The notes under the pieces: model-generated
Database searches by the model: none
What the model was told of the DNA's origin: nothing
Seen by the model: only the letters and a program-made list of their open reading frames with translations
Shown: in pieces, positions 8,708 through 63,375 of the stretch
Position numbering within the stretch: the stretch's first letter is position 1
Layout of the letters: every line of letters starts with the position of its first letter
Origin: Rothia halotolerans
GTDB taxonomy: Bacteria; Actinomycetota; Actinomycetes; Actinomycetales; Micrococcaceae
DNA length: 64,000 nucleotides
Assembly (NCBI RefSeq): GCF_004136635.1
Contig: NZ_NOIU01000003.1
Span: 186,001-250,000 of the forward strand
Direction of reading: 5' to 3'
Translations under genes and position numbers: made by a program

Positions 8708-8815
8708 CCAGGTCAAGAGAACCAGCGACAAGCCCCAGCTAGCTGGTCGGCAACCCTCCAACCGCGGTGGGGTGCCCTGGGTGAGGACCTGGCCGGAGGC
8801 GAACACCGCATCCGG
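8708..8815 (+). promoter_or_regulatory. SAM-IV type S-adenosylmethionine riboswitch
   Basis: The leader of metY carries conserved blocks of the actinobacterial SAM-IV aptamer: GGTCAAGAGAACCAGCG, AAGCCCCAGC, GCTGGTCGGCAACCCTCC, CCGCGGTGGGGTGCCCTGGG and GTGAGGACC. Helix P1 is perfect (CCAGGTC 8708-8714 with GACCTGG 8786-8792). A 3' hairpin CCGGA/TCCGG (8793-8797, 8811-8815) follows, as in SAM-IV. By family knowledge, S-adenosylmethionine binding lowers expression of the downstream genes. The expression platform between 8816 and the metY start is not resolved by eye. Confidence 0.88.
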
Positions 8816-8959
8816 CAAGCGCGGGCGCGGTGTGCCCGGCTGTCACGCGGGCGCGGCTCCCCACTCCCCGGTGAACCAGAGGGTTCCGGGTCGAACGGGC
8901 GCCTCCGGCCGGTGCGCCGCCGGGTCGCCTCGCCCCCTCGAGACGAGAAGGAGCGACGC

Positions 8960-27102: not shown

Positions 27103-27178
27103 TCCCCCGTAGCTCAATTGGCAGAGCATTCGACTGTTAATCGAAGGGTTACTGGTTCGAGTCCAGTCGGGGGAGCCA
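27103..27178 (+). tRNA. tRNA-Asn (GTT), CCA encoded
   Basis: Full cloverleaf: acceptor TCCCCCG with CGGGGGA, D-arm GCTC...GAGC, anticodon stem TTCGA/TCGAA with loop CTGTTAA (anticodon GTT), T-arm ACTGG/CCAGT with loop TTCGAGT, discriminator G and encoded CCA at 27176-27178. It is a single-gene unit followed at once by a terminator. Confidence 0.98.
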
Positions 27179-29827: not shown

Positions 29828-29901
29828 GGGGGGTTAGCTCAGCTGGTCAGAGCAGAGGACTCATAATCCTTGGGTCGCGGGTTCAAGCCCCGCACCCCCT
29901 A
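29828..29901 (+). tRNA. tRNA with CAT anticodon (elongator Met or Ile2)
   Basis: Cloverleaf of 74 nt: acceptor GGGGGGT with ACCCCCT, anticodon stem GAGGA/TCCTT with loop CTCATAA (anticodon CAT), T-arm GCGGG/CCCGC with loop TTCAAGC, discriminator A. CCA is not encoded (CCG follows). The first acceptor pair is G1-U72, a wobble. The variable loop and T-loop resemble tRNA-Ile2 of E. coli (ileX), whose C34 is changed to lysidine, but elongator tRNA-Met is equally possible from sequence. It is not the initiator, because the anticodon stem lacks the three G-C pairs. Confidence 0.93.
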
Positions 29902-29907
29902 CCGAGG

Positions 29908-36367: not shown

Positions 36368-37030
36368 ATGCCCAGCACCGCACCGGATCCCGGCCAGCGT
36401 CCCGGCCCGCCGGGGCAGAGCATCACCGCGACCCAGGAGCTCGACAGCATGGGCCGCGCTCCCGAGGGGGCCAGGGGGTACTCGAGCCGTCAGGTCGAGG
36501 CCTTCGTGCGGGCCTGCGAGGAGAGCCTGCGGGCCGTCGAGGCCGGGGGAGAGCCCGAGGTGGCCTCCGCCGACGTGCGGGGCAAGGCCTTCGACGCGGA
36601 GGAGGGCGGCTACGACGTCGCCGACGTCGACTCGATGCTCGACTCCTACGAGGACCGCCTGGCCCGCGCCGAATGCGCCCGGTTCGCGGCCGAGCACGGC
36701 CGCCCGGCCCTGCAGGCCCGCGCCGAGGAGCTGGCGGGCCTGGTCATGGGCCGGCTGCACCGCCGGGAGGGCGAGCGCTTCCGCCGCCCGGTCGGGAAGA
36801 GGGCCGCCGGGTACTTCGCCGGCGACGTCGACCGGCTCTGCGAGGAGCTCCTGGCCTACTTCGCCGCGGCCGAGCGCGTCAGCCCCCGCCCCCTGCGCGA
36901 GGCCGCCTTCCGCGTCGCGAGCGGACGCACCGCCTACGACGAGGCCCAGGTGGACGCCTTCATGACTCGGGTGGGCGAGCTGATCCAGACTCTGCGCTGG
37001 TCAGACGCTTATTCGGCGGAGGACCGCTAG
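36368..37030 (+). CDS. DivIVA-motif repeat protein
   Basis: A 220-residue soluble protein containing four copies of a Y-x4-V-[DE]-x-[FML] motif: GYSSRQVEAF (37-46), GYDVADVDSM (81-90), GYFAGDVDRL (148-157) and AYDEAQVDAF (189-198). This motif is the first part of the DivIVA N-terminal domain, which binds curved membranes at poles and septa. Proteins built from repeats of it are known in actinobacteria near the rlmN/dxr region. The usual DivIVA coiled-coil tail is absent. ATG 36368 follows AGGAGG, 28 nt after cdsA. A role in cell-pole or envelope organisation is inferred. Confidence 0.78.
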   Translation: MPSTAPDPGQRPGPPGQSITATQELDSMGRAPEGARGYSSRQVEAFVRACEESLRAVEAGGEPEVASADVRGKAFDAEEGGYDVADVDSMLDSYEDRLARAECARFAAEHGRPALQARAEELAGLVMGRLHRREGERFRRPVGKRAAGYFAGDVDRLCEELLAYFAAAERVSPRPLREAAFRVASGRTAYDEAQVDAFMTRVGELIQTLRWSDAYSAEDR

Positions 37031-37060
37031 CCCGCGGGACGCGCCCCGAGCGCCCCTCGC

Positions 37061-37121
37061 GCCTCCTAGTTGTGTCATGGGACACAAGGTACTGTTTCTT
37101 ACATCACAGTACCTAGGAGGC
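37061..37121 (+). promoter_or_regulatory. Three nested perfect inverted repeats enclosing the DUF485-actP ribosome binding site
   Basis: Outer arms GCCTCCTAG (37061-37069) and CTAGGAGGC (37113-37121) are exact complements, and the second contains the Shine-Dalgarno AGGAGG (37115-37120). Inside lie TTGTGTC-ATGG-GACACAA (37070-37087) and GGTACTGT-N10-ACAGTACC (37088-37113), directly abutting. As RNA this is a compact three-way junction that hides the ribosome binding site. As DNA, TGTGT-N6-ACACA (37071-37086) resembles a CRP/GlxR-type operator. The two readings are not exclusive. TACTGT (37090-37095) could be a -10 box. I know of no named RNA family that matches. Confidence 0.75.
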
Positions 37122-37125
37122 TCGC

Positions 37126-37530
37126 ATGACATCCCACGGACCCCCCGACGCCGCGCCCTCGACCGGGCACGGCGCCCCGCCCCCCATCGACTTCGAGAGG
37201 GCCCAGGCCGACCCGCGCTTCCAGCGCCTGCGCCGCTCCCACCGGAGCTTCGTCTTCCCCCTGACGGTCGCCTTCCTGGTCTGGTACCTGGCCTACGCGG
37301 TGACCGCCATGTACGCGCCCGGCTTCATGTCCCACAAGGTCGTGGGCAACGTGAACGTGGGCATCGTGTGGGGCCTGCTGCAGTTCGCCTCGACCTTCGG
37401 CATCACGGCCTGGTACGTCCTGTTCGCCAACCGCCGGCTGGACCCGCGCGCCGTGGAGCTGCGCGAGGAGATGGAGGCCGGAGGGTTCTCCGGGCACGAC
37501 GCCGCCCCCGCCGGGGGTGATCCGCGATGA
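37126..37530 (+). CDS. DUF485 membrane protein, partner of the acetate symporter
   Basis: A 134-residue protein with two membrane helices. The family core is RLRRSHRSFVFPLTVAFLVW then YAVTAMYAPGFMSHKV and FGITAWYVLFANRRLDP. DUF485 proteins (YjcH in E. coli) are nearly always encoded directly before the ActP acetate symporter, as here, and may stabilise it. ATG 37126 follows AGGAGG, which lies in the outer arm of the inverted-repeat element at 37061-37121. The stop overlaps the actP start (ATGA). Confidence 0.9.
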   Translation: MTSHGPPDAAPSTGHGAPPPIDFERAQADPRFQRLRRSHRSFVFPLTVAFLVWYLAYAVTAMYAPGFMSHKVVGNVNVGIVWGLLQFASTFGITAWYVLFANRRLDPRAVELREEMEAGGFSGHDAAPAGGDPR

Positions 37531-39164
37531 GGGCGCTCGCGGAGGAGACGAGGCCGCTGCTGCTGAGCGCGGCCGAGACCGAGACGGTGGGGACCCCCGC
37601 GGTCAACATGTCCATCTTCGGGGCGTTCGTCCTGGTCACCCTGGTAGTGGTCCTGCGGGCCTCGCGGAACAACAAGACCGCCGCCGACTACTACGCCGGC
37701 GGACGCTCCTTCAACGGCACCCAGAACGGGCTGGCCATCGCGGGGGACTACCTCTCCGCGGCGTCGTTCCTGGGGATCGTCGGGGCCATCGCGGTGCAGG
37801 GCTACGACGGCTTCCTCTACTCGATCGGCTTCCTGGTCGCCTGGCTCGTGGCGCTGCTGCTGGTCGCCGAGCTGCTGCGGAACACGGGCAAGTTCACCAT
37901 GGCCGACGTGCTCTCCTTCCGGCTGCGTCAGCGGCCCGTGCGGGTCGCTGCGTGCATCGCGACGCTGGCGGTCACCTTCTTCTACCTGCTGGCCCAGATG
38001 GCCGGCGCCGGCGCCCTGGTCTCCCTGCTGATGGGGATCAGCTCCCGGGCGGGGCAGTCCCTGGTCATCGTGGTGGTCGGGGCGCTCATGATCGTCTACG
38101 TCCTGGTCGGCGGGATGAAGGGCACCACCTGGGTGCAGATCATCAAGGCCGTGCTCCTGCTGGTGGGGGTCGCGGTGATGACCGTCTGGATCCTCGCGCT
38201 CAACGGCTTCAACCTCTCGGAGCTGCTGGGGGCCGCCGTGGAGACCTCGGGCAGCGAGGCCATCCTCGAGCCGGGGCAGCAGTACGGCGCGACCAACCTG
38301 ACCAAGCTGGACTTCATCTCGCTGGGCCTCGCGCTGGTCTTCGGCGCGGCGGGGCTGCCGCACGTGCTGATGCGCTTCTACACGGTCCCCACCGCGAAGG
38401 AGGCGCGGAAGTCGGTGGTCTGGGCGATCGTCCTGATCGGCCTGTTCTACCTGTTCACGCTGGTCCTCGGGTACGGGGCGGCGGCGATGATCGGCAGCGA
38501 GCGGATCGCCGAGGCCCCGGGCGGGGTCAACTCCGCGGCCCCGCTGCTGGCCTTCGAGCTGGGCGGGTCGCTCCTGATGGGCGTCATCGCGGCGGTCGCC
38601 TTCGCCACGATCCTGGCGGTGGTCGCCGGGCTGGCGATCACGGCATCGGCCTCCTTCGCGCACGACGTCTACACGAACGTGATCTGCAAGGGCAAGAGCG
38701 ACCCCCGCAAGGAGATCCGGGTGGCCAAGACCACGGTGGTGGTGATCGGGCTGTTCGCCATCGCCGGCGGGATCGGCGCGCAGGGGCAGAACGTGGCCTT
38801 CCTGGTCGCGCTCGCCTTCGCCGTCGCGGCCTCGGCCAACCTGCCCACGATCGTCTACTCGCTGTTCTGGCGCGGCTTCACCACGCGCGGGGCGGTCTTC
38901 TCGATGTACGGCGGGCTGATCATCTCGGTCGTGCTGATCGCGTTCTCCCCGGTCATCTCCGGAAGCGAGACCTCGATGATCCCCAGCGCGGACTTCGCGC
39001 TGTTCCCGCTGAGCAACCCGGGGATCGTCTCGATCCCCGCCGCGTTCCTCCTCGGCTGGATCGGGTCGGTGACGTCCCGGACCCGCGAGGACCGTCGCAA
39101 GCAGGCAGAGATGGAGGTGCGTTCGCTGACCGGCATCGGCGCGGAGAAGGCCGTCGAGCACTGA
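37527..39164 (+). CDS. actP: Cation/acetate symporter
   Basis: Sodium:solute symporter family member of 545 residues that imports acetate and related monocarboxylates. About 13 membrane helices are visible. Typical segments are ADYYAGGRSFNGTQNGLAIA, GDYLSAASFLGIVGAIA, FYLLAQMAGAGALVSLLMG and GLPHVLMRFYTVPTAKEAR. The protein begins with a periplasmic-side stretch of about 25 residues. ATG 37527 overlaps the stop of the DUF485 gene, so the two are translationally coupled. The pair interrupts an otherwise conserved cdsA-to-dxr housekeeping block. Confidence 0.93.
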   Translation: MRALAEETRPLLLSAAETETVGTPAVNMSIFGAFVLVTLVVVLRASRNNKTAADYYAGGRSFNGTQNGLAIAGDYLSAASFLGIVGAIAVQGYDGFLYSIGFLVAWLVALLLVAELLRNTGKFTMADVLSFRLRQRPVRVAACIATLAVTFFYLLAQMAGAGALVSLLMGISSRAGQSLVIVVVGALMIVYVLVGGMKGTTWVQIIKAVLLLVGVAVMTVWILALNGFNLSELLGAAVETSGSEAILEPGQQYGATNLTKLDFISLGLALVFGAAGLPHVLMRFYTVPTAKEARKSVVWAIVLIGLFYLFTLVLGYGAAAMIGSERIAEAPGGVNSAAPLLAFELGGSLLMGVIAAVAFATILAVVAGLAITASASFAHDVYTNVICKGKSDPRKEIRVAKTTVVVIGLFAIAGGIGAQGQNVAFLVALAFAVAASANLPTIVYSLFWRGFTTRGAVFSMYGGLIISVVLIAFSPVISGSETSMIPSADFALFPLSNPGIVSIPAAFLLGWIGSVTSRTREDRRKQAEMEVRSLTGIGAEKAVEH

Positions 39165-63187: not shown

Positions 63188-63375
63188 GCATCGCTTGACG
63201 CAGGCGCCGGCCCGGCAGGAGCCGGACCGGCGCGCAGAACATCCCAGCGCGGCCCGTACCGACGTGCGGTCCTCGGTAGTGGCCTCCGGAGTCCTGGAAG
63301 GATTCCGTGGGCCTCGATCGAAGACCGAGTCTCGTGATGCGGCGCCGCGCGACCAACGAGAAACGGAGGTGACCC

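Follow-up and report, generated by a model that had tools for sequence, protein, structure and literature searches.

The 61-bp element that precedes the DUF485 gene of Rothia halotolerans is probably a promoter-operator under GlxR/CRP control, driving a DUF485-mctC operon of the mctBC type that is likely to be repressed. This reading derives from comparison of sequences. The element is real, and a promoter flanked and overlapped by CRP/GlxR-type operators accounts for most of it; elements of this kind are known. The window, meaning the whole stretch of DNA analysed, comprises 64,000 nt of assembly GCF_004136635.1 (contig NZ_NOIU01000003.1, positions 186,001-250,000 of the forward strand) and is numbered from its first letter. 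The region contains the following features.

36368-37030, + strand: gene for a DivIVA-repeat protein, the upstream neighbour (TIGR03543 125 bits, below the cut-off of 154; TIGR03544 37 bits, cut-off 22)
37061-37069, + strand: left (anti-Shine-Dalgarno) arm of the outer helix, GCCTCCTAG (sequence and MFE fold)
37067-37072, + strand: candidate -35 element TAGTTG, 17 nt before the -10 element; uncertain
37070-37075, + strand: alternative -35 element TTGTGT, which would leave 14 nt to the -10 element
37070-37087, + strand: inner hairpin 1, TTGTGTC-ATGG-GACACAA (sequence and MFE fold)
37071-37086, no strand assigned: CRP/GlxR-like site 1, TGTGTCATGGGACACA, two mismatches to the consensus
37088-37113, + strand: inner hairpin 2, GGTACTGT-N10-ACAGTACC (sequence and MFE fold)
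37090-37095, + strand: putative -10 element TACTGT (TAnnnT at the same place in 29 of 30 homologues)
37093-37108, no strand assigned: CRP/GlxR-like site 2, TGTTTCTTACATCACA, two mismatches, overlapping the -10 element and the expected start
37101-37103, + strand: predicted transcription start, from the position of the -10 element
37113-37121, + strand: right arm of the outer helix, CTAGGAGGC (sequence and MFE fold)
37115-37120, + strand: Shine-Dalgarno sequence AGGAGG, invariant in the 30-row alignment
37126-37530, + strand: DUF485 gene (mctB-like), ATG at 37126 (PF04341, 112.1 bits)
37527-39164, + strand: mctC-like monocarboxylate transporter gene (NF058657, 902.2 bits, cut-off 670)

A previous sequence-only reading had named the operon DUF485-actP. 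The DUF485 assignment stood, whereas the transporter is closer to mctC: the NCBIfam model for monocarboxylic acid transporters, NF058657, exceeded its cut-off by a wide margin (902.2 against 670 bits), but the ActP model TIGR02711 gave 475.5 bits, far below its cut-off of 1099.25. The transporter therefore appears, from these model scores, to be better named mctC. Homologues of the DUF485 gene were found in 19 of the 35 genomes of the genus and in 338 of the 395 genomes of the family sample. The DivIVA-repeat gene upstream (36368-37030) is a possible source of read-through RNA.

The sequence-only reading described three perfect inverted repeats nested into a three-way junction, and reading the sequence back confirmed every position, arm and loop, as well as the inclusion of the Shine-Dalgarno sequence in the outer helix, with the ATG 5 nt on. 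The assertion that no bases are unpaired at the junctions needed amendment; the arms do abut, but C37113 belongs to two arms and can take part in only one pair, which leaves one base free at the junction. The minimum free energy (MFE) fold of 37061-37121 has an outer helix of 8 bp and inner helices of 7 and 8 bp. Its geometry is, as had been argued, unlikely by chance: the MFE was -29.8 (z -4.75), no shuffle out of 200 folded equally well, and just one of 334 61-nt stretches with similar GC content (0.49 +/- 0.06) was equally stable. By absolute MFE, 4468 of 31970 sampled 61-nt stretches folded at least as well, a number so high because the window is 72% GC. The element itself is AT-rich for its genome (49% GC), and regulatory DNA is often AT-rich. 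Its second hairpin, GGTACTGT-N10-ACAGTACC, has one exact occurrence in the genome, and three places with up to three mismatches compared with six in the control. The arrangement CCTCCT-N30-60-AGGAGG-N4-9-ATG occurred nine times in the genome (control 4), and the six-base anti-Shine-Dalgarno arm alone is thus unremarkable; the full arm of 8-9 bp should be rarer.

For comparative analysis, upstream stretches were taken from 114 loci (L001-L034 and L044-L123), five of which (L092, L097, L099, L110 and L116) had no start codon; 109 were kept, representing 97 distinct sequences. Alignment A2 contains 30 loci, namely all 19 from Rothia and 11 from a subset of the Kocuria genomes in the family sample, with L001 as the window locus and L002 as its nearest relative. 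RNAalifold found no consensus structure in these 30 homologues. All eight outer-helix pairs were present in the window only, seven in L002 and L003, six in L019 and at most five in the other 26. L002 retained five of seven and five of eight pairs of the inner helices; read from the alignment, one pair of its hairpin 1 had both bases substituted (C-G to U-A), and no both-sided change was found in its outer helix or hairpin 2. L002 can also fold a different long hairpin across its Shine-Dalgarno sequence, because the half-sites of two alike dyads pair across as well as within. A conserved extension of the site-2 palindrome (L017, L021, L027) proved not to be general, as columns 49 and 66 were unpaired in 22 of the 30 rows.

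These comparisons bear on the proposal of the sequence-only reading that the junction is a dedicated RNA switch, in which a ligand, protein or temperature would control the translation of acetate uptake genes. The compact and stable fold across the Shine-Dalgarno sequence (z -4.75) is consistent with a switch, as are two results of imposing the window fold on A2: 64.3% of cells were paired (shuffled mean 62.6%), a value reached by 6 of 500 shuffles, and both-sided changes affected 26 cells, a count reached by 10 of 500, although related sequences can surpass shuffles in such a test without any structure. Eight pairs carried a both-sided change (37 of 500 shuffles as high), and the covariation score was matched by 63 of 500. 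A conserved structure with compensatory changes, the mark of a riboswitch, was not found among the 30 homologues. The single both-sided change in L002 lies in hairpin 1, outside the outer helix, of which at least seven of eight pairs occur in 3 of 30 homologues. The inner palindromes are largely kept as DNA sites among the homologues and the anti-Shine-Dalgarno arm is not, an outcome that the sequence-only reading had itself named as speaking against a switch. Furthermore, the putative promoter sits inside the element, with its predicted start within hairpin 2, and Rfam gave no match at the element, either at E values up to 1 or at the gathering score; the sequence-only reading, too, had recognised no named RNA family. 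We therefore regard a dedicated RNA switch as highly improbable.

Elsewhere the window carries a SAM-IV riboswitch (8711-8827, + strand, 109.8 bits), an Actino-pnp RNA (63265-63329, + strand, 68.3 bits), tRNA-Asn (27103-27178, + strand) and tRNA-Met (29828-29903, + strand).

The features conserved upstream of the DUF485 gene are the -10 element, the dyads and, outside Kocuria, a 22-bp spacing between the dyads. A2 shows no variation at T37090 and A37091, in AGGAGG or in two columns at the start codon, and very little in TGT (37071-37073), in ACA (37084-37086), at T37095 or over most of the right half of site 2. TAnnnT is missing from L004 alone, and is present even where site 2 is degenerate (L005, L018 and L019). 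We read this conserved motif at 37090-37095 as a sigma-70-type -10 element, from which transcription would be expected to start near 37102. A start at this position lies inside hairpin 2, and so the promoter's own transcript would not include the left arm. The -35 region is less regular. TTGnnn stands 17-18 nt before the -10 element in 22 of the 30 homologues, no TTG is found at 14-19 nt in six, and in L001 and L002 the distance is 14 nt (window 37066-37095), which may indicate a weak or differently built promoter. A scan of 36900-37250 for consensus promoters found none. The 14-nt TTG, the six homologues without a TTG and the empty scan all count against the promoter interpretation.

The sequence-only reading had offered, as its alternative, that the inner repeats are CRP/GlxR-type DNA operators, and the conserved dyads and their spacing support this suggestion well. 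Sites 1 and 2 are set 22 bp apart, about two helical turns. CRP-like sites were counted if they matched 7 or more of the 10 consensus bases. Pairs exactly 22 bp apart then occurred in 39 of the family's 97 distinct upstream sequences (17 of 19 in Rothia, none of 11 in Kocuria and 22 of 67 in the others), compared with a mean of 0.30 and a maximum of 2 in 40 rounds of shuffling; the homologues are related, and the counts are not independent events. Site 2 overlaps the TAnnnT motif that 29 of the 30 homologues share and is therefore positioned at the predicted promoter. Among the 67 other upstream regions, 61 have a best site with a single mismatch, often AGTGATTGCAGTCACA. Within the 3.04-Mb genome the motif is enriched: TGTGA-N6-TCACA with up to one mismatch was found at 25 places (three for the reversed control), none of them exact. 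The inner dyads as such are rare there: the exact pattern TGTGW-N6-WCACA was present at four places (control 1), and the two-dyad pattern TGT-N10-ACA-N6-TGT-N10-ACA at a single place (control 0). Several observations weigh on the other side. Each of the window dyads has two mismatches to TGTGA-N6-TCACA, so affinity may be low. Across the 11 Kocuria loci the spacing is 26 bp in nine and 24 bp in five, and site 1 varies in shape.

Other palindromes were noted in passing. In Kocuria loci such as L021, L023, L025 and L028, another palindrome, built around TGTATACA (as in TTTGTATACAAA), is seen repeatedly by eye upstream of the promoter, approximately 130-150 nt before the DUF485 start. In the R. 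halotolerans genome, TGTGTCAATGCACACA (L035:1501-1516; G000:C3:521211) lies just before a gene resembling a GntR/FadR-type regulator, and of the motif neighbours L035-L037 in this genome another lies inside a gene read as ligA. A MerR-type dyad was considered, given that site 1 lies in the -35/-10 spacer of relatives, and was dropped because the dyad is variable in shape and is mirrored by site 2.

The genome encodes a GlxR/CRP-type protein (L042:1414-2091). Over residues 4-225 of 225 it aligns with 3d0s, 4byy, 4cyd and 3r6s, which we take to be Mycobacterium tuberculosis CRP and Corynebacterium glutamicum GlxR. Against NCBIfam the protein reached no cut-off, the best match being PRK11753 (CRP) with 107 bits (cut-off 266). 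In the mechanism that we propose, the -10 element TACTGT would lie between two Crp/GlxR-type dyads and overlap the second. Because site 2 covers the -10 element and the expected start, GlxR/CRP bound there, presumably with cAMP, would most likely repress the operon, and a switch of the cell to acetate would lift the repression. The inner hairpins would be the operator dyads read as RNA, and the anti-Shine-Dalgarno arm a lineage-limited addition absent from the promoter's own mRNA. In this scheme, what we infer is that the protein binds, the cAMP logic in Rothia, the position of the start and the direction of regulation.

Published work on related systems led us to propose repression of mctBC away from acetate. 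Passages of PMC7999487 describe the GlxR consensus, a functional imperfect GlxR site, repression of aceA by GlxR in C. glutamicum and, in the same organism, a lower cAMP level on acetate than on glucose. According to passages of PMC4117774, CRP binding near the start is associated with repression in M. tuberculosis. That positional rule for repression and activation is valid at a subset of sites only, and a table in the same source lists, with its site at -0.5, a gene whose expression decreases in the mutant; both points count against repression here. In the Arthrobacter group the site is mostly farther from the start codon, and activation is thus possible there.

The dyads may instead be operators of another regulator, of the RamA/RamB, GntR/FadR or some other type, although we consider this unlikely. 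The regulators listed in the relevant part of PMC2807442 for C. glutamicum cg0952 (mctB), followed by cg0953 (mctC), are RamA and RamB, and the variable shape of site 1 in Kocuria points in the same direction. Where PMC7026483 names MctC it makes no mention of GlxR control, which counts against the GlxR/CRP reading. Against another regulator, 61 of the 67 other upstream regions have a site-2 homologue close to the CRP consensus. A RamB-type motif had no match with up to three mismatches in the window, where 1.68 would be expected by chance, so this result carries little weight.

It is conceivable, though doubtful, that this Rothia-lineage stretch of 61 bp is doubly used, as a DNA promoter with tandem operators and as a translation lock on read-through RNA. 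The operator dyads and the lineage-specific anti-Shine-Dalgarno arm would then fold together to hide the Shine-Dalgarno sequence in RNA from upstream genes, such that mRNA from the regulated promoter alone would be translated. A lock of this type would act beside the DNA operators, as in phage T4 gene e; passages of PMC3014915 describe long gene e transcripts that form a helix hiding the Shine-Dalgarno sequence and, in phages related to T4, a late promoter within the 5' strand of the structure. The predicted folds agree with a lock. RNA from 37031 retains the three-way junction, and RNA from 37102 lacks the left arm and is poorly structured (z +1.66). The predicted unpaired fraction of the Shine-Dalgarno sequence in the long RNA, as against RNA from -24, was 0.02 versus 0.45 in L001, 0.01 versus 0.33 in L002 and 0.00 versus 0.42 in L003, and burial in the long RNA was matched by 1, 3 and 1 of 100 shuffles, respectively. 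In a crude scan, which misses terminators whose A-T pairs consume the T run, L001 and L002 had no separate terminator before the promoter and 14 of the 17 other Rothia loci had one. About 15 bases over the arm are identical in L001 and L002, and the intergenic DNA preceding them has changed.

The distribution of the arm argues against a lock. Concealment in long RNA and greater freedom in short RNA, as expected of a T4-type lock, are predicted, but the arm is retained in only 3 of the 30 homologues. These three occupy two separate places in the tree of the 30 DUF485 proteins, L001 grouping with L002 and L003 lying apart from them, so the arm needs two changes. For 9 of the 30 the predicted openness of the Shine-Dalgarno sequence equals or exceeds that of 80 of 100 shuffles, and among the other 27 homologues L009 alone is as extreme in burial (0 of 100 shuffles). 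The block shared by L001 and L002 is weak evidence, since it covers a possible -35 element and 36 of 49 fourfold sites are still identical between the two. The idea that the arm replaces a terminator was abandoned, as L003 has both and L004 neither, and 10 of the 11 Kocuria loci lack terminator and arm alike (crude scan). An intrinsic terminator at 37070-37087 would be marginal, its T run being interrupted.

The proposed GlxR/CRP-controlled promoter, which we prefer, has known counterparts. With the GlxR promoters of C. glutamicum and the CRP promoters of M. tuberculosis it shares TGTGA-N6-TCACA-like dyads, a matching regulator gene and, like CRP targets under repression, a site that spans the expected start; it differs in that its two putative sites are imperfect and stand a constant 22 bp apart about the -10 element. 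The product of C. glutamicum cg0952 is presumably a DUF485 protein. In C. glutamicum mctBC (cg0952-cg0953), too, a monocarboxylate transporter subunit gene is followed by mctC, but the regulators listed in that part of PMC2807442 are RamA and RamB. M. tuberculosis whiB1, a gene unrelated to DUF485-mctC, likewise has tandem CRP sites, activating and inhibitory, at one promoter (passages of PMC4117774). Phage T4 gene e has in common a Shine-Dalgarno sequence hidden in long RNA and a promoter within the structure's 5' half (passages of PMC3014915), whereas here the operon is bacterial, the arrangement is not conserved and the lock is predicted only.

Among the matches listed in the open-licence literature, there was no study of the DUF485-mctC promoter in Rothia, Kocuria or the Arthrobacter relatives. 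The element also provides a warning that tandem palindromic operators directly before a Shine-Dalgarno sequence fold into convincing RNA junctions. If the dual use were true, the stretch would represent on a chromosome what the gene e lock is in phage T4. The tandem 22-bp spacing is fixed in Rothia and in part of the Arthrobacter group, and our findings point to CRP/GlxR-type control of acetate and monocarboxylate uptake in Rothia, Kocuria and the Arthrobacter relatives.
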